From the NCBI GenBank assembly GCA_035578905.1, contig JAQJVL010000005.1:674347-738346 (forward strand): DNA of 64,000 nucleotides, in the 5' to 3' direction. Numbering within the stretch: the stretch's first letter is position 1; each line of letters begins with the position of its first letter. Below the pieces are notes generated by a model that worked only from the letters and a program-made list of their open reading frames with translations, was not told the origin of the DNA and did no database searches. Shown one piece after another: positions 1-56,467 of the stretch. The position numbers were made by a program, and so were the translations under genes. The stretch comes from Stictocephala bisonia (lineage: Eukaryota; Arthropoda; Insecta; Hemiptera; Membracidae).

Positions 1-96
1 AGCAAAGGCCTGTTCAATTGTCGGTAAACCGACCTTTAACATTTCGACACGATAATAATAGGTCGGCTAGCCGACAATAAACACTAGGAGGGTTAA
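1..96. mobile_element. Terminus of a piggyBac-like element (body lies left of the window)
   Basis: A TTAA at 93-96 is the likely outer edge. Reading inwards on the minus strand, 20 bases lead to a palindromic 16-mer at 61-76 whose core GTCGGCTAGCCGAC is a perfect 14-bp palindrome. A second palindrome, GTCGGTAAACCGAC at 20-33, is centred exactly 42 bp further in (centres 68.5 and 26.5). The two boxes are also inverted copies of each other (17-34 versus 61-78). This spacing, 27.5 bp from the TTAA edge to the first centre and 42 bp between centres, recurs at the piggyBac-like ends at 32260 and 53381. The first bases after TTAA read CCCTCC, similar to piggyBac-type ends. No transposase is visible because the element continues off the window. 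Confidence 0.55.
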
Positions 97-4727: not shown

Positions 4728-4839
4728 TTAACACGTTCACTGCTAAATCTAAAAGAGATAACTTCCTAAGAGCTAAAATTTTTTGGTAAGCGAAGCGCTC
4801 AATGATGCGGTTCCACATCACCGGCAGAGAATGTGTTAG
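4728..4839. mobile_element. 112-bp piggyBac-like MITE
   Basis: The left end is TTAACACGTTCACTGCT at 4728. Read from the right edge at 4839, the other end is CTAACACATTCTCTGCC. The first bases match the MITE at 53381 (TTAACACATTCGCTGCT). At the right end the near-palindrome GATGCGGTTCCACATC occupies 4804-4819, exactly 20 bp in from the edge, as in the other piggyBac-like ends of this window. The TTAA on the right has decayed to CTAA. There is no coding capacity. Confidence 0.55.
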
Positions 4840-9250: not shown

Positions 9251-9540
9251 GGTTAGGTTAAAGGGCACTAAGCCAGGAATTAGTATATTGGAGAGATAGG
9301 ACATCAGCAAACTAATCTTAGAAGACAAGTTCACTAACACCAGAGTAGTAGTAACAAACACAAAATAAACACACAATCTCACAAATGTTCAATACCACTG
9401 GCATTTTCTTCAGCTGAGTAGGAAGCACAAAATTTGTGAGATTATGTGTTTATTTTGTGTTTGTTACTACTACTCTAGTGTTAGTGAACTTGTCTTCTAA
9501 GGTAAGTTTGCTAATGTCCTATCTCTCCAATATACTAATT
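9251..9540. mobile_element. Hairpin (foldback) retroelement, copy 1
   Basis: The element is a near-perfect inverted repeat with arms of about 110 bp (9270-9395 and 9425-9540) around a short loop. It is flanked by identical 14-bp duplications CCTATGTAAAGATA at 9237-9250 and 9541-9554. A target duplication this long suggests insertion by reverse transcription, for example by a Penelope- or LINE-type enzyme, rather than a cut-and-paste transposase. The left end begins GGTTAGGTTAAAGGG. The right arm carries CTAAGGTAAGTTTG, a perfect U1-type splice donor. Related copies lie at 20935-21156 and 35560-35690. Confidence 0.65.
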
Positions 9541-9554
9541 CCTATGTAAAGATA

Positions 9555-10291: not shown

Positions 10292-12490
10292 TTGACATAT
10301 TTACTACAGCTGCGTCATCAGAGATACACAATGGGACATAGCACGGTGCGTGTGGGTCACCGGTGACGAAGCGTGCAGTTCTTTGTTTGTGGATTTAGTA
10401 TGGTGCAGCCACTCGTTGGAGATGGTTGGGACATTGCCCCATTGTGTATCGAATACCAGTCTACTCCGTAGTGTATTTTGTTCAAACTTTCTGTGGTGCT
10501 ATGTGCGTCTCCCGGGACCTGTAACCTTTGTTCGCCTATTGTGTTGTTTACTGTATATATTATATATATTTGTATTTCAGTGTTTATTTATATTTTAAAG
10601 TAGTGTTAAAGTTTTTTAAGTCTTTTGTAACAAAAATGGATAATTTAATAGCAAGTCCATCAAATCTTACCTTATCTTTAGAGAACGTGCCTTTCGAAAG
10701 TGACAGTGACATTAAAGAAGACGCCGCTACTCAACAATCAGTTGACGGTCAATCTAGTGATGAGTATGGTGATTATTTCAATAGTGACAATGATCCAGAT
10801 ACATATGCTGCAGCTCCACAATGGGCAAGAACTACATCAGGCATGCAGCCAATTCAATTTACTAGATTAGACACATTGCTAGTACCAACTCCTGGTGACG
10901 GATCTCCCATTGATTTGTTCAACCTTCTACTCTATGAAAGTCTATCAATTAATCTGCGATACAAGTATCTTTTAAACCTATCCTCACACCAAAATCAAGA
11001 ATACATAAGTGGAAAGACTTGTGTACCAGAACTCAGAATATTCATACGTCTAGTGTTATATATAGAAACGATTAGATTGAATAGGATCCAGAATTAATAG
11101 AAGACTGATTTTCTTTTCGATTTTAAATCTTTTTAACAAAATATGTCTAAGGACAGATTTTTAAACATCCTTTGTTGTCTTCATTTTACAGGAGTACAAC
11201 AAAGGATGAAGACAACATCCTTTTCTCATTGTCCTTTGTCTCCTTTGATTCCATTTGTCTTTGATTCTTCCTTTTGATCAAAGACAAAAGGAAGAATCAA
11301 TAAGAAAAAAAAACCAAACCAATTGTCGACTATTTCAATGAAAAAATGCTTCAGATCTACTATCCACAAAAGGAACTTTCGATCGAAGAAGTTATGATTT
11401 TATGGCACAGGCGATACATATTTTTTCGCCAATACATAAAAGGTAAACGTCATAAGTATGGTATGAAAATGTACACATTATGTGAACACCATGGATTGAT
11501 CCTAAAATTTTTAGTATATGCTGGATCTGATGACAAATAAGTGGGGGGAAAAGGAACACAGAAAACGTTGTAATGAATTTGGAAAAGAAAAACTAGGAAA
11601 GGGCCACTGGGCCACTCAGTCTATATGGATAATGTTTACAATTTTAGCTCATCATCTAGACAGTTAACAAATCTAACATACTCAACCAGAACCCTCAGAC
11701 ACAACTGAAAACATGTGCCAGAGGCTGTGAAGGAAACCAGGTTGAAAAGAGGTGAAACTATTGCCATATATAGAAATAGTGTGATGATTGGAAAATGGAA
11801 ATAGAAAGGAACAGTCAACCGATATTATATATCAACCGAACATGACAATGACATGAGAGAATTCATAAACAAACTAAACCAAGTATAAAAATCAAATCGC
11901 TTCCAATCACAAAATATAATGTCTTCACGAGTGGTGTCGATCGAGCGGATTAGAAGATGAGTTATTATCTGTCTGAACACAAATCAACCAGGTGGTATAA
12001 AAAGATTGTCATACATATTGTTCAGATTCTGCTGCTAAACGCACATGCACTCCACAAAATGTATAGGCCAAAAATGACCATTTATGATTATAGACTCAAA
12101 AGTAAAAAGTTTACGAGGCAAACTGCTCACAAAATAATGAAAAGCATTGAACATGATGAGAAAAAGAGATTGAAAAGAAAGAACTGCCAAATATGTTAGA
12201 AACAAACTGCTTATTATTGCGACACCTGCACTGACAAACCTGGCCTATGTATTGGCCAGTTTTTTCAAGTGTGTCATGACAACTTGTAAATATTCACAGT
12301 AAGGATAGGTAAGAGAGTTGTACAAAGTGTAAATAATAAACATTAGATAATAAGATGTGAAAAACATTGCATATAACACAAGTTCCCGGACTGAATGTGA
12401 CACGGTGTCAGAGCGGGTGGTGAGATCAAAGGAGTCTCGTCGCAAACTGCAATTGCGTCACTGATGACCTACACTTTCCGAAGGCCAAAA
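10292..12490 (+). mobile_element. Degenerate piggyBac-like element (PB1)
   Basis: A TTGA at 10292 with CATATTTACTAC behind it looks like a worn TTAACACATT-type end. The 16-mer at 10312-10327 (GCGTCATCAGAGATAC) is a decayed first box. The 16-mer at 10354-10369 contains the perfect palindrome GTCACCGGTGAC and is centred 42 bp from the first. On the right, GTCACTGATGAC at 12457-12468 and TGACACGGTGTCA at 12398-12410 are further dyads, but the outer edge is not clear and 12490 is an estimate. Confidence 0.5.
10636..12290 (+). pseudogene. Dead piggyBac-like transposase
   Basis: The frame starts with ATG at 10636 and an acidic N-terminus (SDSDIKEDAA, DSDNDPDTY), followed by YAAAPQWA as in piggyBac proteins. 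The frame then fails repeatedly. MSKDRFLNILCCLHFTG lies near 11142-11190, and the catalytic region reads SIEEVMILW (11376), so the first Asp of the DDD triad is Glu, with GKRHKYG after it. YMDN-x-YN lies near 11623 and GVDRAD near 11935. A C-terminal stretch at 12110-12290 corresponds to the cysteine-rich tail. Two local hairpins (11160-11320) interrupt the gene. The order matches the transposase at 32541, but this copy is much older. It cannot make a working enzyme. Confidence 0.75.
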
Positions 12491-12721
12491 GTCATGGATA
12501 GAGGTCCAGAAATGAGATTTAATCATCAGTTTTGAATTTTTGAGGACATGAGGTAAGATATTATAAAAACAGATTTTTCAGCTCTTAGATTATATGTTTC
12601 TATTTACCGCCGCGAATGTGTTAAATTATGCACAAACAGTTAAAAAACATTATTTTTGCCTTTTTTGAGTAAAAACAAATTGATTGCAAATAATCAATCA
12701 TAATTTGAATTGCATAGTTTT

Positions 12722-13375: not shown

Positions 13376-15309
13376 CTAAAACATAATCAACAAATTTATG
13401 AGAAATTTTAATTAGGAATTTAAAATTATTTGTTATATTTTCAGAATAGAATAGTCTAAAAAAAATTCAGGTGAGCAAAAACATAAAATGAAAATGGGTG
13501 TGATCTGATGAGGACAGGTCATCCATGGTCCACCGAACCTGAACTCTATGTGCTCTTCTCACCATACAAGACTGTAGTAAATACATGATGATTTTTAAAG
13601 CAGTGTCAGTGCAAAATGATTACATTTTAATTTCAACTTTATATCACTCCATTGTTATGCTATTGGCATTATCCTAATTGGTTGTATTTAACAATAGTTG
13701 GTGGCAGAACAAAAAAATGAGGTAACTATTTTACCATCTTTTGTCTTTCTATTAAGTATATCTGGATTTATATTTAAAAAGAGTTAATTAAGATCAGGTG
13801 TTATAGTAAAAATATTTGATCTGTGGAAAAATTTCAGAAAAACCATATAAAATTAATAATTATGGTTTTATACACAGATTAGCAGTTCCAACATTAAAGT
13901 CTAATAAGCTATGCATTAAATACTAGAAAAGTGAGGATATAGCTGGTACAGTAAACTAATCATCTATTAGCTTATTAGAATTTGAAAGCTGGGCTAATTA
14001 TTGGGACAGCCTCAGCCTGTTCAGATTCCTTAAAGTTTGGATTATCTGAAAATGAGTGAAACTAATCATTCAAAGCATTCCTACAACTATCAGCATTGTT
14101 GATAATGTTTCCTGACAAATAAGAACGATATTGTGTGGCTAGGATGAGTCACTGAGTTGGCCTTATGTTGCTGCACCTGTCTGTCACTCTATCCCTCGCC
14201 CTCCTGTCTCTGATTGATGTTACTGATCACGGTACCTAGAAACGAACGCAGTAGGTATCACGTGCATATACCCTAATGTTACAAAGGCAAAGTGACAGCT
14301 GGTTGGAACAACAAATAAACACAAAAATACTTGTTCTAAATATTTGGTTATGATTCCAGCTAATTAGTGGCAAATAGATTTCTTCCTACTTAGCTTAAAG
14401 CTTCAAAGAGATTAGTAGCTTTAGTAACCAGTATTAAATGGAATAATCAAATAAGCTGATTTTGCTGAGGTGACGCAAGATTCTATTGCACAGAATCACT
14501 GTGATACCTACCATCTGTTCTATATTTTCTATATATGGTACCATCAGGTACCATATATTTATGATTAGTTAATGTAATCTTATTTCAGTCTGATTTGAAT
14601 ATTAATTTTATTGTGTTTTACATTTTTCGTTGATATCGTGACCTTGACAGCGCCTAATTGGCTACATTAATTTAACCCTGTTAATATTTTTTACATTTAG
14701 TAGAAGTTCATTTTGTTGTACTCCATTCTAGGATCTAGGTTAAAATGTAGATAATTATTAAAGTAGATAAGTTTATTAGTTTAAGAACGTAGTTTTATAA
14801 CATGTTTGTGTAGATGTAATTTAGTTTTTAGCACTTGAAAAAGATTTGGGTTTTACCAAATCAAAACGTCGTGATTGTTATTTTTCACGTAATGATGGCA
14901 AATGTCCAACTACCTTTGTCTCCCTCATCTGTTCTAGTTAACTTGTTAGTGATGCATAGACAGTGCCATTGTTTGAGGTTAATTGCTTACCCACTGTACA
15001 GTTCTTTGCAGTTTATATTCACTGTTATTTGTGTTCAATACTATAGTTAGTGTATTATTTTAACCTTACAGTAGGCTACTTAATAAAATTCAGTGTTTGA
15101 TTCATTATTTACGTAATTTTACTCTAAACTGCTGTTTGGTTTTTGATAGGCCTATGCAATTCCTTCTTGCGTTGGAGTGTGGTACAATGACAGTTAATTA
15201 ATCCTACACTAATCAATTTTCTTATACTGCACACTGAATAATAAATATGTTTTCAAGTTCCTCGTCTTCAATTTTTTATTTATTTCATTTCCATTTACCG
15301 TTGGTTAAG
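13376..15309. other. CPT2: CPT2 intron, no further feature apart from a short perfect hairpin
   Basis: AT-rich. At 14531-14558 the sequence ATATATGGTACC-ATCA-GGTACCATATAT forms a perfect 12-bp stem with a 4-base loop. Otherwise I see nothing. Confidence 0.45.
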
Positions 15310-17385: not shown

Positions 17386-17789
17386 AAGGATGATGGAAAT
17401 TCTATTTAAATATTAAAATGGTAAAGGTAAACTCAACTATACAAGTGAATTGAAAGACTATAGGAATGTGTAAACGGAGACAGTATTAGCGGTCAGAAGT
17501 GGTTGCTATAGTGGACACCACTTCACTAGCCAGAAGTAGTAAGTAAATGTATGTTCTGGGACAACCATTATTGTCATTAGTAAGCAAGTCATTTACCAAC
17601 ACCTCACTAGTAGGTATACCGCACACTTCTGTTTACCAAATAAGGTCATCTAACTGTTAAAGGTTATTGACATCACCTCACCATATTTGGTCATATAACA
17701 GTCCAAGGTCATTGACCTCACTTAGGATAATTAATCTAGAAGCCATCATTTAGGGTCTGTCCCTAAATTACGAAATGCTAAACTCAGGC

Positions 17790-18336
17790 TTTTCAGGCCC
17801 TTCCCTCCCCCTTGTAACCCACCCGTCCACCCATACACGTACGGTGGTATTGGACCCACCTGCCCTACCCTACATGTACGGTGGTATTGACCCACCCACC
17901 CATCCATATACTTTCGGTGGAATTAAACCACACTCACATACACGTACAATGGTATGTGTAATCAATAACCCACCCAACCATACACGTACAGTGGTATTAA
18001 CCACCCGCAAACCCATACACGTACAGTGGTATTGACCCACCCAGCCCACTTATACACATACAGTGATATTGATACACTTATAAGCTACTCTAACATATTT
18101 GCGTAGTATTTTTAATACCACGAATGTTAGGTGGGAAAAAGCATCGAGAGTGCTGAGTCCATAAAAACGTATGGCCTACAGGCCTGTGCGTGAGCTTTAT
18201 TCAATGAGTGAATTACCTACCGTTGGTTCAGTCAGGATTTGAACGTACAGTGATCTTAACCCACCCGTCCACCCCTACACTTAAAGTGGTATTGACCTAC
18301 CCATCCACCTCTACACGTACAGTGGTATGGTGCAAT
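17790..18336. repeat. Minisatellite of the GTGTATGGGTGGG family, around a SINE fragment
   Basis: About six units (17815-18060) and two to three more (18244-18336) appear as the C-rich strand, with CCCACCC, CATACACGTACAGTGGTATT and similar blocks. Between them lies 18172-18246, a piece of SINE family 1 on the minus strand that is cut at its box B. The same unit recurs at 30326-30535, 30780-30935, 55440-55515 and 58096-58311. Confidence 0.75.
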
Positions 18337-18967: not shown

Positions 18968-20302
18968 CGAGGGCTATCCAGAAAGTAACAGACATTTTTG
19001 AATTGTGCGGCAGTGGGCGGGGCTACAGCCGCCATCTTGGTGTCAAAACACTCTGGCGTTCAGTACACATCAAGCTGTAGTCGCATGCCGTCTGTACCTC
19101 TTTTGCTTGTCTCACTTTGAATAGTTAAAATGTGTGCTGCAATTGAAAATCTCGCCACTTGTGAAGTGTGTTCAGTGATAAAGGTTTTTGTTGGCAAAAA
19201 ACCATAAACCAATTGAAATCTATCGCCAACTGTGTGAAGTTTATGGAAATGGAATAATGAGTGAAAGCAGAGTAAGGCAGTGGTGTATTGACTTTAAAAA
19301 TGGCCGCACCAATATTCATGACGATAGTCGTAGCGGTTGGTCTAGCCTTGTGACTGAAGATTTGATGTTGAAAATCAATGACAAAGTTCGTGGAAATCGC
19401 TGTTTCACAATGTCTGAACTCTCGGAACATTTCCCACAAATTTCACGAAGTTTACTTCATGAAATTGTTGCAGGGAAGCTTGGATACCACAAATTTTGTG
19501 CCAGGTGGGTTCCAAAAATCCTTACGGAAGATCACAAAAAACAAAGACTTGCTGCATAGTTAACTTTCCTTGATGAATACGACAAACATGGTAACAAGCT
19601 TCTCGATCGTATCGTTACTGGTGATGAAACATGGGTGAAGCATGTCAATTATGAAACAAAAATGCAGTCTATGGAATGAGGGCACACCCATTCTCCAAAA
19701 AAACCAAGAAAATATCTCCAAACTCTGTCAGCGAGAAAGATTATGGCAACTGTTTTTTGGGATGCTAAGGGTGTGATTCTGGTTGATTTCCTTGAACGAG
19801 GACCAACAATCAACGCAGAGAGGTATTGTGAAACATTGCAGAAGCTACGGCGAGCGATACAAAACAAGCATAGGGGAAAATTGAGCTCAAAAATTTTAAT
19901 TTCCACGACAATGCACGTCCCCATACAGCCAATCGTACACGACAAGTCTTGGATGATTTTGATTGGGAAGTGTTTGATCATCCGCCTTATAGCCCAGATC
20001 TGGCACCAAACGACTACCACCTCTTTCCAGCGATGAAGACCTGGCTCGCAACGCAGCGCTTTGATAGTGACGCTGAACTTCACACTGGCGTTAATAAGTG
20101 GTTAAGATCTCAGGCGGCAGATTTCTACAAAGCTGGAATCGAAAAACTTGTGTCACGTTATGATAAATGTCTCAATTTGAATGGGGATTACGTTGAAAAA
20201 TAGCCTAAAAGTGTAGCTTTTAAATGTATATAATAAAATGTTCCTATTTCAGTTGGTTAATTTTTTATTTCAAAACATCTGTTACTTTCTGGATAGCCCT
20301 CG
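18968..20302 (+). mobile_element. Mariner element, complete ends
   Basis: The left end CGAGGGCTATCCAGAAAGTA is mirrored exactly at the right end (20278-20302 on the minus strand), with TA on each side (18966-18967, 20303-20304). Its 1335 bp is the usual mariner length. It is inserted within the P-element-like relic and is therefore younger than it. Confidence 0.9.
19130..20203 (+). pseudogene. Mariner transposase (DD34D), inactivated
   Basis: ATG at 19130 and TAG at 20201-20203 would give a protein of about 357 residues, the normal mariner size. An N-terminal helix-turn-helix region (KPIEIYRQLCEVYG, ESRVRQW) is followed by the catalytic blocks TGDETW, HDNARPHTA and PYSPDLAPND. The second and third Asp are 34 residues apart, which is diagnostic of mariner. 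It is broken by a frameshift near 19180, stops at 19558-19560 and near 19678, and another frameshift near 19890. All three acidic residues are still present. Confidence 0.9.
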
Positions 20303-30325: not shown

Positions 30326-30935
30326 AATACCACTGTCCGTCTACAGGTGGGCGGGAGGGCATTGCTACTGTCTATGTATGGGTAAGTAGGAGGGCCATTA
30401 CCACTGTCCGTGTACAGGTGGGCGGGAGGGCATTGCTACTGTCTATGTATGGGTAAGTAGGAGGGCCATTACCACTGTACGTGTATGGGTGGGCGGGAGG
30501 ACAATGCTACTGTCCATGTACGGGTGGGCAGGAGGGCTATTACTGTATGACTGTACAGCCCACCAAAGAAACAAAGACTGTACAGACCACCAAGCAAACA
30601 AAAACTGTACAGAATACCGAGCAAACAAAAACTGTACTGACCACCAAAAAAACAAAGACTGTACAGAATACCGAGCAAACAAAAACTATACTGACCATCA
30701 AACAAACAAAGACTGTACAGACCACCAAGCAAACAAAAACTGTACTGAACACCAAACAAACAAAGACTGTACAGACCACCACTGGTCAATATCACATTAC
30801 GTGTATGGGTGGACGGGTGGGTCAATACCACTGTACGTGTATGGGTAGGTGGGCGGGTCAATACCATTGTCCGTGTATGAGTGGGCAAGTGAGTCAGTAC
30901 CACTGAACGTGTATGGGTGGACGGATGGGTCACAA
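30326..30935. repeat. Compound minisatellite: GTGTATGGGTGGG units flanking a 27-bp array
   Basis: Bases 30326-30540 and 30783-30935 are units of the G-rich 33-36 bp family. Between them, 30546-30782 is about nine units of 27 bp (CTGTACAGACCACCAAGCAA plus ACAAAAA), alternating two versions so that a 54-bp higher order shows. Because 27 is a multiple of 3, long frames stay open and read as nine-residue TVQTTKQTK-type repeats. I see no start, splice or promoter evidence for a protein. Confidence 0.8.
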
Positions 30936-31221
30936 GTACACAAAGTTGTACCTATTCTGCAATAGTTAGTAGACTGCTACAGTGGTTTTTATTCACAAGA
31001 TACGTGAACAGCCCTAAACTAAAAACTGGTAGTCAAAAGGGTTTATAAAAAAAATACTTTATATTCTCTTTTACAAATCCTAAACTAAAATGTAATTTAT
31101 TGAAATTAACACTTATTTCATCTTTTATAATACTCTTTTCACATTGAGCGTGTTTAAACTACTTTTTGAAGGGATTTTTTTTAGATTTCAAATAATATAG
31201 CATTCTGATACTACAAAATAC

Positions 31222-32259: not shown

Positions 32260-32279
32260 TTAACACACTCCGTGCGGAG

Positions 32280-32295
32280 GCCTCCGATCGGAGGC
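32280..32295. repeat. Palindrome box 1 of PB2
   Basis: GCCTCCGATCGGAGGC, a perfect 16-bp dyad starting 20 bp from the TTAA. It overlaps a further palindrome, CGGAGGCCTCCG (32275-32286). Possible transposase or host-factor binding site. Confidence 0.9.
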
Positions 32296-32321
32296 ATGAC
32301 GAACTCTCTTCGTGTGCGTCC

Positions 32322-32337
32322 GCCTCCGATCGGAGGC
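32322..32337. repeat. Palindrome box 2 of PB2
   Basis: Identical 16-bp palindrome, 42 bp from box 1 (four helical turns at 10.5 bp). Confidence 0.9.
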
Positions 32338-32540: not shown

Positions 32541-34182
32541 ATGGAGTGTACAAATAGAACTAGTGAAATAGACAGAATGCTATTAGAAAATGATGACGGC
32601 ATGGACTACTCTAGTGAATCAGAAGGTACGGACATCTTGGATGACCTTGACGAGACGCAGCAGTACGCGGATTCTGATACCGACGATGACATCCCCGATG
32701 ACAACCCCAACATTGCTGATGGCCCAGACGATGTTGTCTACAACCCACAGTGGGTACCTTACACCGCAGGTTTGAGAAATATTCCATTTTCAAAAGAAAA
32801 TAAAATATTAGTACCATTGCCAGAAGACAATACACGTTTTGGTTTTTGAGAGTTGTTATTAGACGATGAATTTTTGCAAGTAATTGTAGAAAAAACAAAC
32901 GAATATGCTTGGCAAATATTTTTTTCACCAACTTTACAACCTAAGTCTAGGATAAACAAGTGGACAGACCTTACTCTTGCAGAGTTTCCACATGGGAACT
33001 GTCAGAATAAATAGAATAAATGACTATTGGAAGACGGACAAAATGTTTAACTTCCAGTATGTTAGGGAACAAATGCCTAGAGATAGATTTTTATTGATAT
33101 TGAGATGTCTTCACCTGTCAGACAACCAGCAACCAACAGATGACCGTTTAGCGAAAATGAGAATCCTAATCGATTATTTCAATAAAAAGATGAGTGATGT
33201 GTACTACCCTGGGTGTGAACTTTCACTTGACGAAGGTACAGTGCTATGGAGGGGACGTCTGCTTTTCAGACAATACATATCTGGAAAGCGTCACAAGTAC
33301 GGGATAAAGGTGTACTCTCTGTGCGAGCCTGATGGCCTCTGTTTGGCCTTTACGGTCTATAGTGGAAAAGAGGGGAGCTCAGTGGTAAAGGTCATGCTAG
33401 TAAAGTTGTCAAACATCTTATGCAAGGCAAGCTAGGGGTCGGACATACATTATATATGGACAACTACTACAATAGTTTTCCACTAGCTTCCGAGCTTCTT
33501 GCTGAAGATACCTACTGCACTGGAACTTTACTTTCTAATAGAAAATACCTACCAGCAGAAGTAGTACAAGCAAAGCTAAGACCTGGAGAGAAAATAGAGC
33601 GCTATGCAGAGGGAGTGATGGTTGGGAAATGGCGTGATAAACGCAATGTTACGTACATTTCAACAAAGTATGAAAATGACTGGGCAGAGTCCAACAACAG
33701 ATATGGTCAACCAAGACAGAAGCCATTGCCCATAGTGTTTTATAACGCTTACATGAAAGGGGTAGACAGGAATGACCAAATGATGAGTTTACTACCCTTT
33801 CGAACATAAGAGTTTGAGGTAGTACAAGAAAACGTTTGTTCATTTTCTTCAGATGCTTATGGTGAATAGTTTTAAATTGTACCGCATAGCAAACCCAAGA
33901 TATAAAACAGACCTTTACAGCTTCAGACTTTCAGTTATCAACAAAATGTTGACAAGAAATGTAGTCACACCACCACCTCGCCCCCGACAATCACAAACTG
34001 TCAGGCATGTTTTGTCAAAGTCAGATGTTAGAGACAAAAAAGGTGATAGATTTTTGAGGAAGAGGTGCAGACAGTGTGCCAAAGAAAAGAATAAAACGAT
34101 GACAGTATTTATCTGTGCTCAGTGTCCAGGGGAGCCAGGACTATGTGCCTTGGCTCGTTTTGACAAGTGGCACTCCCCGTAA
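32541..34182 (+). pseudogene. piggyBac-like transposase, nearly complete
   Basis: ATG at 32541 opens an acidic N-terminus (DSDTDDDIPDDNP), followed by VYNPQWVPY and a core with RDRFLLILRCLHLSDNQ. The catalytic DDD triad of the family is intact: SLDEGTVLW (about 33227), YMDNYYNSF (about 33456) and VDRNDQMMS (about 33761). The C-terminus holds the cysteine-rich domain (CRQCAKEKNK, FICAQCPGEPGLC) that in piggyBac binds the subterminal DNA, ending at a TAA at 34180-34182. It is broken by a TGA at 32847-32849 and frameshifts near 32970 (with a small deletion), 33380 and 33805. Compared with the copy at 10636 it is young. Confidence 0.9.
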
Positions 34183-34356
34183 TGAACTAACTTGTTCAGA
34201 ACAATGTAAATAATTTAGTTTAGTTATTATAATAGTGATTTGTAATGTATTTGACTTATCAATTGAGGCCACAAGCAATATAGCGTGTGTGACTGAAGTG
34301 CGAAGCGCGGGACGTCTACGGTCGGTGACCCATGGAGAAGGACGTGATGTGCGGAC

Positions 34357-34372
34357 GCCTCCGATCGGAGGC
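34357..34372. repeat. Palindrome box 3 of PB2 (right side)
   Basis: Third identical 16-bp copy, 175 bp after the transposase stop codon. Its flank GTGCGGAC matches GTGCGGAG before box 1 in direct orientation. Confidence 0.88.
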
Positions 34373-34434: not shown

Positions 34435-35219
34435 CAGATTCTTCTGATAACAAGGTATTAAGTGTCTTAACTAACACTGGTCAGTCACTTTTTAAAGAAG
34501 ACATAGGTGTACGGAGTCGAAAGCGTCACTAATTTTCCTGTCTGAAGTCCAATGAACAGGAATAGATGTTTGAGTGCAAGAAATGTCCATACAATATTCA
34601 ACAATTTGGTCTGGAGTAAAGTCTCTTATTGTTATCACTGGTTTTGAAAAATGCAATTGTTTCAAAATTCAGAGACTGACTTGTGAGAAAAAGCGCCCTT
34701 GGCTCTGTAGGTACAATACGGCTGGTACTTACCATGTTTTAAGTTACATAATCAAATGATAAAAGGAAAGCCACATTATTAGTTAAGATAGTTGAAGCCT
34801 GCCTCGTGCCACCATGTATTTAGTATTATGTTATGTTGTGCATTATTATAACTTGTTACATTGTTAGAATATTTAATTATATATTTATTTATCTATTAAC
34901 TTATATGTTAAAGTGGATGGAACTTATATGTAATTTCATGTATGAATAAAATAAATAAATAATTTACAAATAAAATTGTATACATTGGATTGTTTAAACG
35001 TTTTTGAAAAATATTGTTTCCAAATCTCAATCCACAAAACATGTTTTCAGGAATTCAAAACTAACAAAATTAGCAGATTTTTATAAAAAAAACATTTTAA
35101 TAATATGTAATATAAGTTATTTTATTTTCACATGCTACTTAACAGAAACTTAAATCCAATGTGTTTATTACAAACATAACGTATGTGAAAATTAAATTTT
35201 AAATGTCCATCAATTTTGA
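34435..35219. other. Unassigned sequence with a LINE-like 3' tail
   Basis: An open frame at 34574-34759 has no recognised similarity. Bases 34860-34968 resemble a LINE 3' end on the plus strand closing in AATAAAATAAATAAATAA. Confidence 0.35.
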
Positions 35220-45319: not shown

Positions 45320-46013
45320 TACAGGGTGGACAGAAGTCAGTGTTAAAATATTTTTCTGGTGAAACTACCAGATATTAGTGACAAAAAATGGAAATATTAT
45401 TTTCTTCGCCACAACCACCTTTAATTAATAGATATTTTAATTGTTTTACTAAAAAAACGTGTTTTGTTTTAGTAAAACTTAGTTTTCACCATTATTTATT
45501 AACATTTTATCACTTTTGGTGTTTTTTTTAAATCTACACAACATTTTACATTCAAGGTAAACTAATTTTTCATTATGAACTTATTATAAACAAATTTGTG
45601 ACAAAATGAAATTTTAATTTTTTTTAAAAATAAGTCACGGAGGCCCATAAAAAATTTTATGGAAGACCCTATTTAGGCTGAGGACTTTCATAAAATAGGT
45701 CCTGTTTCATAAAATAACAGAAAAACATGCCTGTTTTTTAAGCTTTAAAATGATGTAATACAACTGTACTCTCATACTCGTCTTCTATTGGTTAGTACAG
45801 AATCTATGCTAAAAAAAAGGTTTGCTTGAAATGCCACAGGATCATTGAAGTAGTCACAATAAAATAATTTTTTAATTCATTTACAGCCAAATATATTGTT
45901 TATTTTTTTATTCACTGTAGTATGTGTGTTATTTACAAGATGAACACCTAAAAATAATGAAAAAAAAGAAACAAGCAGAAACTAATGTAATCTACAGAGT
46001 ATGCTCAAACTGT

Positions 46014-47347: not shown

Positions 47348-50300
47348 TTAGGTGTTTGTTGCATCCAGGAACTCCTCCAGGCTGTAGAGTGGTGTCTTAA
47401 CAAGGAATTCTTGAAGTGATTTCTTCAGTGCCTTTCCAGTTAGCGATTGAAGGTCCTCTGGCAGTCAATTTCTGAGTTTCCGCCCTACATAAGATGGTTT
47501 TTTTTCAAAGAGGGCAGTTCGGTGGCGGGGCAGAACATATCTGGAGGCGTGTCGGGTGTTGTAGTCATGGAGATTGTTGTAAGTGTCAAAGTTGAGTCTG
47601 TCAACATGTAGCATTGTTTCGTACACATACAGAGCTGATACAGTCAGAATGCCTAAATTTTGATATGCTTCTCTGCAGCATTGTCGAGGCTCAAGATTGG
47701 CAAGGGATCTGATTGCCTTTTTCTGGAGGGTGAGTATCCTTTTCAGGTTTCCATTAGAGCTGCCCCAGATGATAAGACCATATCTAAGACCACCTCTACC
47801 AGTGCGTAATAGGCAGCTTTGACGGATGCCTCAGTACCCACTGATTTGAGTCGCCTCATGACGTATATGCCTGCACATATTTTATTCGAAATTGTGCTCA
47901 CATGATGACTCCATGAAAGTGTATTGTCGATAGTTAAGCCCAGAAATTGTGTTTTATCGGATACTGATATGTCTGGAATATTTGTTGGTATTTCATTTTT
48001 CCTACTGAAATGCACTTGCGTTGTTTTTTTAGGATTTATTGCCAGATCTTTCAGTGCACTGTATTTGATGGCTCGTTGGAGAGAAGTCAGAGAGTTAAGG
48101 GATAGTTCATCTACTGTGTCATTTTTTATAAGAAGGGTAGTGTCGTCTGCATACATTATGCAGTCAGTACTGGGGCTGTCAATGAAAGTAGGGAAGTCAT
48201 TAGTCAGAAGGATAAAAAGAACTGGGCCAAGTACTGATCCTTGAGGCACACCTCTTGCTATTGGTTTTGGAGCTGATGTGTATGATCTGGTGATGCAAGA
48301 TTCAGTATGCTGTACCTCCACAAGTTATGACCTTCCTTGGAGGTAGCTGGAGAACCATTTATTCTCTATGCCTCTTACTCCCAGATTTTCCAGCTTTTTT
48401 AATATTAGGTCGTGTCCCAGACAGTCGAAGGCCTTGCTGTAGTCAAGAAATAAGGCTGTTACGTACTTTTCGTCATCTATGCTGTCAATGTTGGGCGAGC
48501 CGGTGGCCGAGTGGTCTAAGGCGTCAGGACTTTGAGCTTGGGTTAGAGATAGCGCTGGTTCGAATCCGGCCTAGACTGAAAGATTTATCAGTAATATTCA
48601 CCTTGTACTGTACAGGTTCGCCCCCTTACTCTGACTGAATAAGTTCTTCGCACAGATCAATGGTCTATGGGGAATGGTCAGAGTGGTTAAGGAGGAGATC
48701 GGCCTCTCCTTTTAAAAAAAATAAATAAAAAAAAAAAATGATTGATTCTACTAAGCTGATAATTGCTGATATGGTTGATTTTCCTTTTTGAAATCCATGT
48801 TGGTTGACTGTGATTAAATTGTGATGTTTCAGGTAGACCATCAATCTCTTCAGAACAAGTTTCTCTAAGATTTTTGCAAATGTAGATATTAGCGAGATGG
48901 GTCTGTAGTTCTGAGGGTCTGATTTCTTTCCTTTCTTGTGTTTCGGATAGACCTTTGACACTTTAAGTCTTGAGGGGAAGTGACCGTCGACAAAAGATTT
49001 GTTAATGATTGCTACAAAGGGTCGGGTTAATTCATTTGCACAGAGCTTTACACTCTTTGAAGAAAACTCATCTATGCCACTGGACGATTTGTTTTTCAGT
49101 CTGCGAATTGTTTGATTCACCTCTGTCCAAGTTGTTGGTGTCATGCAAAATGACTCTGGCATGGGGATGTTAAACAAGTTTGGGTTTTCTCCTGTCCAGC
49201 CAGGTGCTAGAGTGTTTATTTGGTTTTGGATTGTCATATCAGCTATCTGAGTAAAGTAAGTGTTAAAGCTTTCAGCTACTTCTGCAGGATTATGTAGTGT
49301 GGTGTTGTTGATGTTAAGTTTAGGGCACTCCTGCTTGCACTGTTTCCCACGCCTCTCATTATTAATCAAACTCCATAGGGTCTTGGTCTTGTTGTCAGAT
49401 TCTTCTATGTGCTTTGAGTTTGCTTGCCGATGCAGTGTTCTTAGTTTTTGGTCATATATCCTCTTTCTGTTTATCATTATTTCTTTTTCTTGAATATCTC
49501 CTGTTATTTCGTAGGTGTTAAGGGCTCGTAGATAGGAGGCTTTCATATCAGCAGATTCCAAGTCGTAATAGTGAGATGGTTTGGTAGGCCCTCTGTTCTT
49601 GTGTTTCCTTTGAGGGCAGCAGATATCTAGGACAGTATAAAGGGTGTCATGGAATATATTATATGCTGTTTCTGTGTCTTCAGCAGTTTCAACAGCATTC
49701 CAGTTTTTGTTGACGAGGATGGATTTGAGATTTTCGAGGTTTTTTTTCCCCATTTGTCGCTTTAGTATTAGTGTTGAGTTGGTCTCTTCGTTTAGGTCAA
49801 GGCTGCTCATCTGGGCTGTATGGTCAGAGAGGCCAGTTTGTAAAATAGTTACAGTGACCTCCGCTTCTGGGATGTTGGTGCATACGCAGTCTATGGAGGA
49901 TCTCGTCTCAGCTGTTACCCGTGTCGCAGGGAGGGGAAGCCTTCTTATGTTGTGTGTGGTTAGTTCGTCTTTTAGCATCAAATTGTCAGGGTTGTTTTCT
50001 TTTAAGCTATCAATGTTTATATCCCCTAGTAATAAAAATAACTTATTGTGTGCTTGGTTGTGGTCTAGGATTTGAGACAAAATATTTAGGCCAGTTCTTG
50101 TGTTTCCACCAGGAGGGCGATATACACCAAGGAGATATATTAGCTTTCCTTTAACTTTGATCTGTGCCATTGCTGCCTCAAGGAGAAGTTCTTCACAAAA
50201 ATGTGTAATTTCAATGGCCTCTATACTGGTTGTCAGGTTGTCCTTACAGTATATAGCGACACCTCCTAGCTTATGATTTGTTCTGCTAAATTCAGTTACC

Positions 50301-50475
50301 AAATTGTAGCCTTGTATTTTGGTGTTTAAAATTTCACTTTGACTCAAGCCATGTTCTGTCAGTATAAAAAGACTAGGGGATGTTTCATTGAGCAGATGGT
50401 TTAGTCTGTCAACTTTGTTTGAGAGTCCCCTGATGTTTTGATGAAGGATTGTCAGATGTTCATTTCGTTTCGTTG
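47348..50475 (-). pseudogene. LINE ORF2: endonuclease and reverse transcriptase
   Basis: The frame overlaps the end of ORF1 and starts with HQNIRGLSNKVDRLNHLL, then FILTEHGLS, LGVYRPPGGN, LLLGDINIDSL, ATRVTAETRSSIDCV and TGLSDHTAQ, the full APE-type endonuclease set. The RT begins NYRPISLISTFAKILEKLVL and NQHGFQKGKSTISA. It is then cut by the SINE at 48493-48738 and resumes with FLDYSKAFDCLGHDLILKKL, GVPQGSVLGPVLF and MYADDTTLLI (catalytic YADD intact). A nonsense codon in GRS*LVEV (about 48325) and a frameshift near 47770 follow, and the C-terminus ends EFLDATNT with TAA at 47348-47350. Apart from these lesions it is complete. Confidence 0.88.
48493..48738 (+). mobile_element. tRNA-derived SINE, family 2, copy 2 (inside LINE ORF2)
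   Basis: The head carries box A GGCCGAGTGGTCTAAGGCGT and box B GGTTCGAATCC, tRNA-Leu-like with a long variable arm. The body contains TGTACTGTACAGGTTCGCCC and GATCGGCCTCTCC, followed by a poly(A)-rich tail (AAAAAAAATAAATAAAAAAA). The insertion splits the LINE frame exactly between codons for VESI and DSIDD, with only a short (CATT-sized) duplication visible. It is opposite in orientation to the LINE and better preserved than the copy at 12722. Confidence 0.85.
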
Positions 50476-52026
50476 TTTGAGGCCTAAAAAATATTCTTCA
50501 TTTTCTGCCATTGGGGTATTCAGTGAGCAATCAGAGACATCGGTGGGTTCTTTAAAAGTATTGCAACTTGTAGATATCAAATTTGTCAATTTAACATATT
50601 CTGTGCTGTTATTGAGCCCGTAATTATTTATCAGCTCCCTATAGTAGTCAATGTTTTTCTCAAAAAAGGTTTCATAGTCCTCATTTATGTCTTTTATTTT
50701 TGCATGTTGAGGGTGAGCCTTTTTGCTGTTTGCCTGAGGATTCACTGGTTGTGTTCTTTTGGCTTCCAGAGTTGGAGGGGGTGACACTTCCGCTGTGTGA
50801 ATCTGTGCTTTGCTTTTTACAACTTGCAATGACACGCTTAACCTGTTATCCCTTCTCTTTTTAATGGGATTGTTATTCTTGATCAAGGCAGCAGTGTTTG
50901 TCAATATGCTAACAGAATTGTTCTGTTTTTTAGAAGTAGTTTGTCTGGCTCTCCACGTCAAACTTTTGTTCAGTTTTTTAGTCGGAGTTTGTCTGACTCT
51001 CCCTGTTTGTGATGAGCTCAGTTTTTCTGTGGGAGTTTGACTGGCTCTCCCTGTTGAATTCTCGTTGGGGTCCTTGGTACGGAGTTGTACTGAGAAGTGT
51101 GATATTATTTCCCCAGTACTTTGGCAGTTGTCAAGGTCAGATGTGGGCAGAGATAGTGGATAAAGGTGATCTTTATTTTGTAGCTCGTCTAGTAGTAGCT
51201 TCATCTGTTGTTCCACTTTGTCTTGTCTGGTGCTTAACTGTCCAACTTGTATAAGGAGAGACGGAGAGCTGTTTGGTGGGGGAGAGGGAAAGAATGACAG
51301 AGATTGTGGTGTAATTGAAGGGGATATTCCTTCAGAAGTTTGAGTGGTGGAGTTTTTATATGATTCTGGATCATTACTTAACTTAATTTTGAGCTGTTTA
51401 ATTGTATTCTGAAGAGTTGCAACATTTCTCTCGTATTTAGAAATGATTTCTTCTTTTTCTCGATCAGAGTCTTCATATAATTTTTCAAGGTCAGTCCTCA
51501 TTTTGTTTTCTTTTATTAATTGGTTTTCAACCTGATTTAATTTTTCCACTAGCATGCTATATCTATTTAGAATTGTAACCTTCTCATTTTCAAGTTCTTC
51601 TAATTGTGATTGATAGTCTATGTTGTTCATTTTACGATTATTCAGTTCTCCAATTTCGAGTATTAGTTTAGCGTTAGTGGTGGTTAATTCAGTTATTTGC
51701 TGCTTTAGCTCTTGATTTTCAGCTAACAAGGCATTTCCAACCTCGGCTGCAAGGGACAGTGAGTTTTCTAGGTTTTCTTCAGTATTGCCAATGGTTAAAA
51801 TTTTTTGTTCAATTTCTTCTAAACTAGTCGCTGAGTTACTGCTGTTTATTGTAGTTTTACATTTGCCACATTTCCATGACTCTATTTCAGATTTATTTAG
51901 GTTTTTGAACATTTTATCTGTCCAGTTAAGACATTTGGAGTGGTACCATTGACCGCACTCACCCGTGCACAGTATGCCCTTGTGCCTCACTCCTATAGTA
52001 CAAGTCCCACATGGGTATCTGGACAT
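50452..52026 (-). CDS. LINE ORF1 protein with PHD finger and coiled coil
   Basis: An intact frame of 524 codons starts with ATG at 52024-52026. Residues 6-57 hold a C4HC3 PHD-type finger (PCGTC, LCTGEC, WYHSKC, WKCGKC). A coiled coil of about 150 residues follows (leucine/glutamate-rich, for example LEELENEKVTILNRYSMLVE). Then comes a Ser/Pro-rich stretch (SPSITPQSLSFFPSPPPNSS), three related basic repeats with the RARQT/RVRQTP motif, and a C-terminal tail. In LINEs this protein binds the RNA and forms the RNP; the coiled coil would drive multimers. The last codons overlap ORF2 in another frame, suggesting coupled translation. This is the only large intact frame in the window. Confidence 0.88.
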   Translation of the reverse strand: MSRYPCGTCTIGVRHKGILCTGECGQWYHSKCLNWTDKMFKNLNKSEIESWKCGKCKTTINSSNSATSLEEIEQKILTIGNTEENLENSLSLAAEVGNALLAENQELKQQITELTTTNAKLILEIGELNNRKMNNIDYQSQLEELENEKVTILNRYSMLVEKLNQVENQLIKENKMRTDLEKLYEDSDREKEEIISKYERNVATLQNTIKQLKIKLSNDPESYKNSTTQTSEGISPSITPQSLSFFPSPPPNSSPSLLIQVGQLSTRQDKVEQQMKLLLDELQNKDHLYPLSLPTSDLDNCQSTGEIISHFSVQLRTKDPNENSTGRASQTPTEKLSSSQTGRVRQTPTKKLNKSLTWRARQTTSKKQNNSVSILTNTAALIKNNNPIKKRRDNRLSVSLQVVKSKAQIHTAEVSPPPTLEAKRTQPVNPQANSKKAHPQHAKIKDINEDYETFFEKNIDYYRELINNYGLNNSTEYVKLTNLISTSCNTFKEPTDVSDCSLNTPMAENEEYFLGLKQRNEMNI

Positions 52027-52094
52027 TATATAACAAAAATTATGATCAAATATTTAATAATTAATAGTTAAGTAGATGAGAGATGTCAATATTT

Positions 52095-52325: not shown

Positions 52326-52874
52326 AAATTATATATTACCTGAAATTTTAACCGTATTTTCAGTACTTCAATGATCCCGTGGCATTTCAAGCAAACCTTG
52401 TTTTTTAGCATAGATTCTGTATTAACCATTAGAAGACGAGTATGAGAGTACAGTTGTATTACATCATTTAAAGTTTAAGGCATGTTTTTTTCTGTTATTG
52501 GCATCTCTTCAGGAACTATTTTATGGAAGTCCTCGGCCTGTATATCTTGTGACTTATTTTTAAAGAAACTTAAAATTTCACTTTGTTGCAAATTTATTTA
52601 TAGTAAACTCATAATGAAAAATTTGTTTACCTTGAATTCCCATGTAAAATGTTGTGAAGATTTAAAAAAAACACACCAAAAGTGAAAAATGATAATGAAT
52701 AATGGTGAAAACTAAGTTTTACTATAACAATACATGTTTAAAAAAAAAACAATAAAAATATATTTAATTAAAGATGGTTGGGGGGGAAGAAAATAATAAT
52801 TCAACTTTGTTGTCACTAATATCTGGTAGTTTCACCAGACAAATTTTTTAACACTGACTTCTGTCCACCCTGTA

Positions 52875-53380: not shown

Positions 53381-53778
53381 TTAACACATTCGCTGCTGAT
53401 GGCGCGGTTCCGCGCCATGCCCCATGCTTCGTGAATGCGCATGGTGCAGTTCCGAGCCAAATTGTTAGTTTTGTGTTATTGCCTCAGTGTTTTTAGCATT
53501 TAACATAGCGCTGTGATTTGTTGTAAGCACTTTAGAAATGTTTTGTCGAACAAAATATTACAATTCGATATATTTGAATTATAACTTGTTCAGATATTCA
53601 AATAAACAAAATATTCGTTATAGTTTACCACTCCTAGTGAGGGTATCTATCACTTGTAGGTTAGCAGCGGTGAGGGTATCTATCACTTGTAGGTTAGCAG
53701 CGGTGAGGGTATCTATCACTTGTAGGTTAGCAGCGGTGAGGGTATCTATCACTTGTAGGTTAGCAGCAAATGTGTTAA
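53381..53778. mobile_element. piggyBac-like MITE with palindromic boxes and internal 33-bp repeats
   Basis: The left end TTAACACATTCGCTGCTGA and the right end, reading inwards as TTAACACATTTGCTGCTAAC, are clear inverted repeats including TTAA at both edges. A 16-mer GGCGCGGTTCCGCGCC at 53401-53416 (7-bp arms, 2-base centre) starts 20 bp from the TTAA. A worn copy GGTGCAGTTCCGAGCC (13 of 16 matching) lies exactly 42 bp on at 53443-53458. On the right, four 33-bp units (GTGAGGGTATCTATCACTTG plus TAGGTTAGCAGCG, 53637-53768) end in the TIR motif itself. No transposase. Confidence 0.85.
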
Positions 53779-55041: not shown

Positions 55042-56215
55042 TTACAATTTCATGTTATCTCCTTCAATGTACTCTCCTCCTCGGTCTCTACACCGCTCCA
55101 TACGAATTTTCCACTGTTCATAGCAATGCTGCAGATCATTTTCGGTAAGTCCATACATTACTTCCGTCGCTTTTTCTTTTACTGCTTCAACAGTCTCAAA
55201 TTTAGTTCCTTTCAAAGCTGACTTGACTTTAGGGAAAAGAAAAAAGTCACAGGGGGCCAAATCAGGTGAGTAGGGTGGATGATCTAAGATGGGAATGTTG
55301 TGTTTTGCCAAAAACGTCTTCACTGACAACGCACTGTGAGCTGGGGCATTGTGTTGGTGAAGGATCCATGACTTTTTTCTCCACAAATCGTTCCGTTTTC
55401 TCTGTACTCGCTCACATACACCCAAAGGGTGCAGATTTTCCTAGTACCACTGGGTATAACCACTGTACGTGTATGGGTGGGCAGGTGGGACAATACCACT
55501 GTGTAGGGTAGCCAGGACGCTAATGTAGTAATGCTGATTTTACTGTTTGTCCCTCTGGTACCCAATCAATGTGCACAATCCCTTTGATGTCAAAAAAAAC
55601 AATCATCATAGCCTTGAATTTCGATTTTGACATTCGTGCTTTTTTTTGTCGTGGAGAACCAGGAGTTTTCCAATGCATCGATTGGCGTTTAGTTTCGGGA
55701 TCGTAAGTAAAAAACCACGATTCATCGCAAGTAATAACATTTTGTAAGAAGGTGGGATCACTTTCAATGTTTTCCAGGATGTCAGAACAAATCATTCTTC
55801 GGCGTTCCTTCTGTTCAATTGTGAGACACTTTGGAACCATTTTTGAACACACTTTGTTCATGTTGAAACTTTCATGAAGAATCTGCCTAACACTTTCCTT
55901 GTCAACTCCTGTTAACTCAGACACTGCTCTGATTGTTAAACGGCGATCTTGTCGAACAAGTTTACCGATTTTTTCAATGTTTGCATCAGTTTTTGCTGAC
56001 AATGGTCTGCCAGTGCGAGTGTCATCACTGGTGTCTTCGCGGCCATCTTTAAATCGTTTAAACCACTCAAACACTTGTGTTCGCGATAAACAATGATCGC
56101 CGTACACTTGTAACATTACAAACGTTTCACTTGCAGATTTTCCTAGTTTGAAACAAAATTTGATGTTAACACGCTGTTCTTTCTGTACACTCAACATTTT
56201 CCGACGCACAGACAA
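55042..56215 (-). pseudogene. Mariner transposase 2, disrupted
   Basis: ATG at 56213-56215 opens a long intact N-terminal block: EQRVNIKFCFKLGKSASETF and SRTQVFEWFKRFKDGREDTS (helix-turn-helix), then ITCDESWFFTYDP with the first catalytic Asp. After VPEGQTVKSALLH a stop and the minisatellite piece interrupt it. The frame resumes with RVQRKRNDLWRKKSWILHQH and ends with PYSPDLAPCDFFLFPKVKSA and the usual GGEYIEGDN tail. The second catalytic position reads HQHNAPAH where mariners have HHDNAPAH, so the Asp is replaced by His. It is inactive on two counts. Confidence 0.9.
55440..55515. repeat. Single unit of the G-rich minisatellite inside mariner 2
   Basis: AACCACTGTACGTGTATGGG, TGGGCAGGTGGGACAATACC and flanking GTACCACTGGG form one to one-and-a-half units of the family seen at 58096-58311. 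The mariner coding sequence continues on both sides. Confidence 0.75.
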
Positions 56216-56467
56216 AACGTCAACTACTTAAAACAGACGCCACGGGCAGACTGAGTGCAGGAGGCAGATGAAACTCGAGCAGTAGGCGGAGCGAGAGTCA
56301 CGTGACAGGCCACGCGAATTTCAGCCTTATTGCATTCGTTTTATTGTTTCACCAGTACTAGTCCGGTTTTTTTCTAGCCGCACCTCATAAACCTTCACTT
56401 TGGATATTGTGTAAGTGAAAATAATCACTCCATTAATTGAGTATTTTGGTTCGGCCATTGCCCGAAT

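Follow-up and report, generated by a model that had tools for sequence, protein, structure and literature searches.

Elements and palindromes in the window

The window, that is, the whole stretch of DNA analysed here, comprises 64,000 nt of Stictocephala bisonia (assembly GCA_035578905.1, contig JAQJVL010000005.1, positions 674,347-738,346 of the forward strand). It contains five piggyBac-like elements, designated A, B, C, D and PB2, whose features are collected in Table 1. Distances are given from the element tip; the value of 27.5 for the first dyad centre in the original prediction had been counted from the first T of TTAA and equals 24.5 from the tip.

Table 1. Positions of the five elements, their palindromic boxes and coding remains in the window.
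Element	Feature	Position	Strand	Remarks
A	Left target site TTAA	93..96	-	
A	Box 1, core GTCGGCTAGCCGAC	61..76	-	Centre 24.5
A	Box 2, core GTCGGTTTACCGAC	19..34	-	Centre 66.5
B	Whole element, 104 bp	4728..4839	-	Between TTAA 4728-4731 (right, boxless) and CTAA 4836-4839 (left)
B	Box 1 GATGTGGAACCGCATC	4804..4819	-	Centre 24.5, 7/9 pairs
D	Whole element, 2325 bp	10292..12624	+	TTGA 10292-10295 (left) to TTAA 12621-12624 (right, tip CACATTCGCGGC)
D	Box 1	10312-10327	+	4/9 pairs, barely a dyad
D	Box 2, core GTCACCGGTGAC at 10356-10367	10354..10369	+	Centre 66.5, good dyad
D	Broken transposase remains	10639-12286		tblastn of relatives
D	Third, imperfect box GTCACTGATGAC	12457..12468	+	158.5 bp from right tip to centre
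PB2	Left target site TTAA	32260..32263	+	Tip bp 1 = 32264
PB2	Unit 1 outer motif TGCGGAG	32273..32279	+	bp 10-16
PB2	Box 1 GCCTCCGATCGGAGGC, perfect 16-bp palindrome	32280..32295	+	bp 17-32, centre 24.5
PB2	Unit 2 outer motif TGCGTCC	32315..32321	+	bp 52-58
PB2	Box 2, palindrome identical to box 1	32322..32337	+	bp 59-74, centre 66.5
PB2	piggyBac-type transposase, broken frames	32541..34179	+	DDE_Tnp_1_7, zf-Tnp_2
PB2	Third unit, right end: TGCGGAC followed by the identical palindrome at 34357-34372	34350..34372	+	
PB2	Right target site TTAA (tentative)	34467..34470	-	Tip GACACTTAATAC
C	Whole element, non-autonomous, 390 bp	53381..53778	+	Between TTAA 53381-53384 and TTAA 53775-53778
C	Box 1 GGCGCGGTTCCGCGCC	53401..53416	+	Centre 24.5
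C	Box 2 GGTGCAGTTCCGAGCC	53443..53458	+	Centre 66.5, 13/16 letters as in box 1
C	Right end, 33-bp tandem repeats with TGCTAACC motif	53637..53767	-	Without palindrome at bp 17-32

The left site and first palindrome of PB2, and an identical copy 42 bp further on, are exactly as originally predicted; the third identical copy was absent from that account. Third boxes deep in the right end are retained by PB2, at 102.5 bp from its tentative right tip, and by D (158.5 bp in), and both are oriented as the left-end units. Element A runs off the window start, with only 92 bp in view. Its tip, CCCTCC, differs from those of the other elements, and the offset of 24.5 and spacing of 42 bp are unchanged, in agreement with the prediction. 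At C, the predicted centres and the 13/16 copy were recovered, the second box being weak as a dyad (5/9 pairs). D likewise shows the good second dyad expected of it, next to a site that is TTGA rather than TTAA and a poorly paired first box. For B, the box at 24.5 was confirmed, flanked by CTAA instead of TTAA, and no second box is present in the element. Thus a first centre common to all five elements is seen cleanly in three (PB2, A and C) and in decayed form in B; for D, whose present letters do not place a dyad there, we infer it.

Target sites are TTAA on both sides of C and, with a tentative right tip, of PB2; B and D have TTAA on one side and a one-base variant on the other (CTAA and TTGA, respectively), and A has a single side in view. 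The right site of PB2 is probably the one given in Table 1, whose tip is weakly similar to the left tip. Partner ends were found by a tip-pattern search on both strands. As the ends of B, C and D were set by their partner right ends, with the boxes unused, the predicted offset agreement survives the definition of true ends (by partner ends, not by empty sites) for these three elements, and weakly for PB2. A tip-like match at 50591, lying inside a retroelement-like reading frame, was treated as chance. The palindrome at bp 17-32 was absent from all four right ends (PB2, B, C and D), and the layout, apart from the third boxes of PB2 and D, belongs to one end of the element. Neither this one-sidedness nor the partner right ends figured in the original prediction.

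The boxes of B and C are identical at 11 of 16 positions, the 5 differences being all transitions as judged by eye. The B box is therefore counted as a decayed C box, which leaves PB2, A, C together with B, and D as the four classes by letters. Sequences that differ from family to family, as predicted, are seen for four classes, not five.

Several other features were recorded in the window. Behind the TTAA at 14569-14572 (minus strand) lies a dyad, GGTACC-TGAT-GGTACC, with its centre at 24.5, which may be due to chance or to another family; it was left out as a member, its tip being unlike those of the other elements. A tandem array of a 55-bp repeat extends from 36533 to about 39700 (55 copies counted), most of the copies shown being 93-99% alike to the reference copy. 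Two inverted arms of 115 bp at 9275-9543, complementary at 95% and separated by 39 bp, resemble a fold-back element. Inverted arms at 45550-45823 and 52394-52637, 6.6-6.9 kb apart, flank long retroelement-like frames at 48668-52053, with TTAACACTGACTTCTGTCC in outward orientation at 45346 (minus strand) and 52848 (plus strand). A similar minisatellite-like repeat, encoding by eye roughly T-H-P-x-H-T-R-T-V-V-L, recurs at 17754-18032, 30472-30951 and 58060-58359, one occurrence being within a reverse-transcriptase-like frame. Finally, we take 19182-20200 and 55045-56227 to be the remains of two mariner-like transposases, the frames being judged by eye.

Statistics of the tip-to-dyad geometry

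Three TTAA sites, those of PB2 (32260), A (93-96, minus strand) and C (53381), have dyads whose centres lie at exactly 24.5 and 66.5 bp from the tip of the element. Their composition-weighted dyad scores at these two offsets, 40.5, 31.4 and 27.9, respectively, are the three highest among 1387 oriented TTAA sites. By the same score, the next-best TTAA site is an AT microsatellite (18.2) and the best of seven control tetramers reaches 19.2. Scanning for dyads without base-composition weighting gave no enrichment at 24.5 in this AT-rich window. A grid scan covered 110 half-bp offsets and 61 lags, with a G+C filter applied to both boxes. At the threshold used, the cell (24.5, 42) was the sole TTAA cell with more than one member, having 3, while the control tetramers yielded one cell of 2 (TATA) and otherwise 1. 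Since the offset and the thresholds were informed by these same elements, the dyad-score and grid tests are not independent of them. In the shuffle test, the edge rule excluded A, so that the real window counts 2, like-for-like with the shuffles; a count of 2 was reached in 65 of 1329 shuffles and a count of 3 in none.

The repeat structure of the left ends was also calculated. The best self-repeat lag is 42 in the four left ends having a second unit, with 22 (PB2), 19 (C), 16 (A) and 13 (D) of 25 letters repeated; the period in these elements is thus 42 and not the 44 of piggyBat. Of 11 units, 10 have a TGC or TGT 14.5 bp to the outside of their dyad centre, the first unit of D being the exception (TAC), and the frequency of TGY in the window is 0.035.

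The transposase and its C-terminal zinc domain

Two pieces of PB2 match PF13843 (DDE_Tnp_1_7), and PB2 also matches zf-Tnp_2. Searching the window by tblastn with relatives covered PB2 and D and detected no transposase in the parts of A, B and C in view. The transposases of D and PB2 are distinct, with 31-67% identity between forward-frame translated pieces, and the C-terminal zinc domain of D is partly deleted, reading loop included. Among the matches listed, the best named relatives of the PB2 transposase are from Homalodisca vitripennis, which we take to be a leafhopper. A profile of PB2 relatives detected piggyBat at 2.1e-42 versus piggyBac at 7.3e-21. Related-locus searches of viral contigs and genome contigs found no piggyBac loci, nor did a tblastn search of phages and plasmids with relative P0004.

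The C-terminal piece of PB2 was modelled with a mean pLDDT of 79.5 and a pTM of 0.38. Submitted to Foldseek, the model had one PDB match at E<=0.001, the piggyBat chain 9c0f (E 2.3e-4), with a TM of 0.42 and a poor overall rmsd. A phmmer search of the same piece against the PDB retrieved no transposase and one unrelated match (E 0.87). The link of the PB2 C-terminus to piggyBat runs through relative P0001, whose cysteine-rich domain (CRD) part alone has an i-Evalue of 4.3, and through the fold search.

Three alignments were assembled from hand-picked rows: the window piece with 14 of 18 matches (A1), 18 rows from 120 matches listed out of 535 found (A2), and 36 rows from three relative searches and the window (A3). 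Of the 36 hand-picked rows, 31 show every ligand of the pattern H-C-C-C-C-C-C-H, which is collinear with that of piggyBat, where one Cys is replaced by His. The PB2 copy keeps 7 of the 8 zinc-ligand positions, the remaining one being neither Cys nor His. Taken together, sequence and model assign the PB2 transposase and CRD to the piggyBat type, with a predicted cross-brace zinc domain.

Counting from the second CRD cysteine, an inferred offset in the numbering puts the base-contacting residues R543 and E545 of piggyBat at +6 and +8. Among 131 proteins, 46 matches carry the CRD motif, of which 35 have a 12-residue loop, 32 of these being unique; PB2 does not fit the motif. In these 32 unique loops, +6 is Arg in 26 and +8 is variable.

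Known relatives and the reading of the left ends

In human PGBD3/MER85, an imperfect 16-bp palindrome lies 3 bp inside the 13-bp 5' TIR (PMC3459987, 2012), and can thus be counted at bp 17-32 of the 5' end, as in PB2, A and C. PGBD3 has this palindrome three times: the second copy is 59 bp upstream of the ORF, and the third, like that of PB2, comes after the ORF and well away from the 3' TIR (114 bp). In the short deletion derivative, as in B, the 5' palindrome is the only one retained. Palindrome binding was shown by EMSA and ChIP-seq: exchange for random sequence reduced binding by 80% for the palindrome and 60% for the TIR, and the consensus is matched by 291 of 363 bound versus 48 of 526 unbound MER85s. 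The letters of this palindrome, GTTCCAtTAtTGGAAC, are unlike those of the window elements (all PMC3459987).

The bat element piggyBat (Myotis lucifugus) is the closest solved transposase and CRD to PB2. Along its left end, G motifs at bp 11-16 (G1, GCGGGA), 55-60 and 99-104 are each followed by a palindrome (P1 at bp 19-30), the unit being repeated every 44 bp (PMC11707139). The first palindrome is bound by a CRD dimer (PMC11707139); CRDs sit on P1 and P2 and none on the right end (PMC11707139, PMC13405395), and the left end, within the tetramer, is bent near bp 25 and 69 (PMC13405395, preprint). Recomputing the dyads on the printed oligonucleotides, we obtained centres of 24.5 and 68.5 for piggyBat and 25 for piggyBac, and a best self-repeat lag of 44 for piggyBat by the computation applied to the window left ends. 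Like the window elements, piggyBat therefore repeats an outer motif and a palindrome along its left end, with a P1 centre of 24.5; unlike them, it has a 44-bp period, three units, imperfect palindromes and other letters (PMC11707139). No palindromes and no third box are reported for its right end, whereas PB2 and D have one (PMC11707139, PMC13405395). The right-end motifs of piggyBat are at 12-15 (G1RE) and 44-48 (G3RE) (PMC11707139), about 32 bp apart; the 33-bp repeat of the C right end contains the tip motif, possibly with the same spacing.

In piggyBac (Trichoplusia ni), as in the window elements, a palindrome lies near the tip; it spans bp 17-33 (centre 25) and carries a CRD dimer (PMC7351741). 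CRD-dimer binding was seen by cryo-EM for both piggyBat and piggyBac (PMC11707139, PMC13405395, PMC7351741). In contrast with the window elements, piggyBac has its palindrome on both ends, at different distances, and a CRD fold unlike that of piggyBat (PMC7351741); its transposase is more distant from PB2. The paired-palindrome layout, which the original prediction had supposed undescribed, is thus already present in PGBD3/MER85 (2012), at the same bp 17-32, and in piggyBat (2025). Exact phasing by four helical turns (42 bp), put forward as a general feature, does not extend to the whole group either, the piggyBat spacing being 44 bp. A literature search, conducted largely outside subscription journals, found no description of the 42-bp version or of these insect families.

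We consider it very probable, by analogy with these systems, that the window elements have piggyBac-superfamily left ends of the piggyBat/PGBD3 kind, the palindromes being transposase-dimer sites 42 bp apart. A full left end would then hold two such sites. In each, the outer TGC/TGT motif (bp 10-12 and 52-54) would be read by the transposase core, and the palindrome centred 14.5 bp further in by two dimerised C-terminal CRDs. The protein would set the tip-to-dyad distance, and the letters could drift along with each family's recognition domain. The right ends being devoid of a tip-proximal palindrome, the two ends would be bound asymmetrically, as in the piggyBat tetramer. The geometry, its one-sidedness and a PB2 transposase and CRD assigned to the piggyBat type are seen here directly; binding, the tetramer and the matching of CRD to palindrome in the window elements are expected from the relatives. 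The dimeric DNA-binding domain proposed in the original prediction is the best explanation, having been demonstrated in relatives by EMSA, ChIP-seq and cryo-EM. Weighing against it are the presence of a transposase in PB2 and D alone, the poor dyads of D box 1 and C box 2, the weak right tip of PB2, the third boxes of PB2 and D (shared with PGBD3, absent from piggyBat), the 42-bp period, which is not that of piggyBat, and the like-for-like shuffle count (65/1329).

The constant offset could instead stem from common descent of one end whose letters have since drifted, and not from a protein constraint. The similarity of the PB2, B, C and D tips to CACAYTC..TGC is what such descent would leave, as are the transition-only differences (5/16, by eye) between the B and C boxes. 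Yet A, with its unlike tip CCCTCC, keeps 24.5 and 42, PGBD3 and piggyBat also have 24.5, and the different letters on both arms of a dyad would point to selection. A matching geometry with unrelated ends and transposases elsewhere has been partly seen, and we judge descent without constraint to be very unlikely. Somewhat less credible still is the proposal that the palindromes act as DNA or RNA hairpins or cruciforms, not as duplex binding sites. In its favour, both boxes of PB2 have perfect 16-bp symmetry. One report, citing a review, notes that inverted repeats, subterminal or inner, may be present in piggyBac-like elements, and mentions theoretical hairpins and cruciforms of such repeats (PMC12324416). 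Against this, the innermost position is unpaired in C box 1, the B box and A box 2. Between the two copies in A the arms agree at 10/12 positions and the centre at 1/4, C showing the reverse (arms 9/12, centre 4/4), and the palindrome of the relatives is bound as a bent duplex by a CRD dimer (PMC7351741, PMC11707139, PMC13405395). The hairpin or cruciform requirement suggested originally is not needed for the explanation.

Chance, or selection by the reader among about 1390 oriented TTAA sites, appears to us the most improbable of these readings. Sites and offset were indeed chosen together when the prediction was made, and the edge-trimmed count of 2 is matched by some shuffles (65/1329); but among the TTAA cells only (24.5, 42) exceeds 1, its 3 members being a number that 0 of 1329 shuffles reach, the ends of B, C and D were defined by their partners with the boxes unused, and the published relatives have the same offset.

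The palindromes are thus most likely transposase-dimer sites, in insect elements that had not been counted among the members of this architecture. What is new is these further insect members, the 42-bp spacing and the four palindromes on one scaffold, the end architecture itself being already known. Within 64 kb, four palindrome classes stand on one scaffold, two of them with a transposase in view. It is conceivable, as a more speculative step, that on a fixed tip-to-dyad scaffold the CRD reading loop changes in step with the letters of the palindrome, yielding mutually orthogonal transposase/end pairs in one genome, separated mainly by their palindromes.

The end architecture known from human PGBD3 and bat piggyBat is hereby extended to insect elements. 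With a fixed geometry and variable letters, left ends could be searched for by dyad scanning, and this combination merits genome-wide study. Genomes with many families could reveal how a zinc-domain dimer changes its specificity, a matter relevant to the possible failure of related transposons in the same genome to cross-mobilise.
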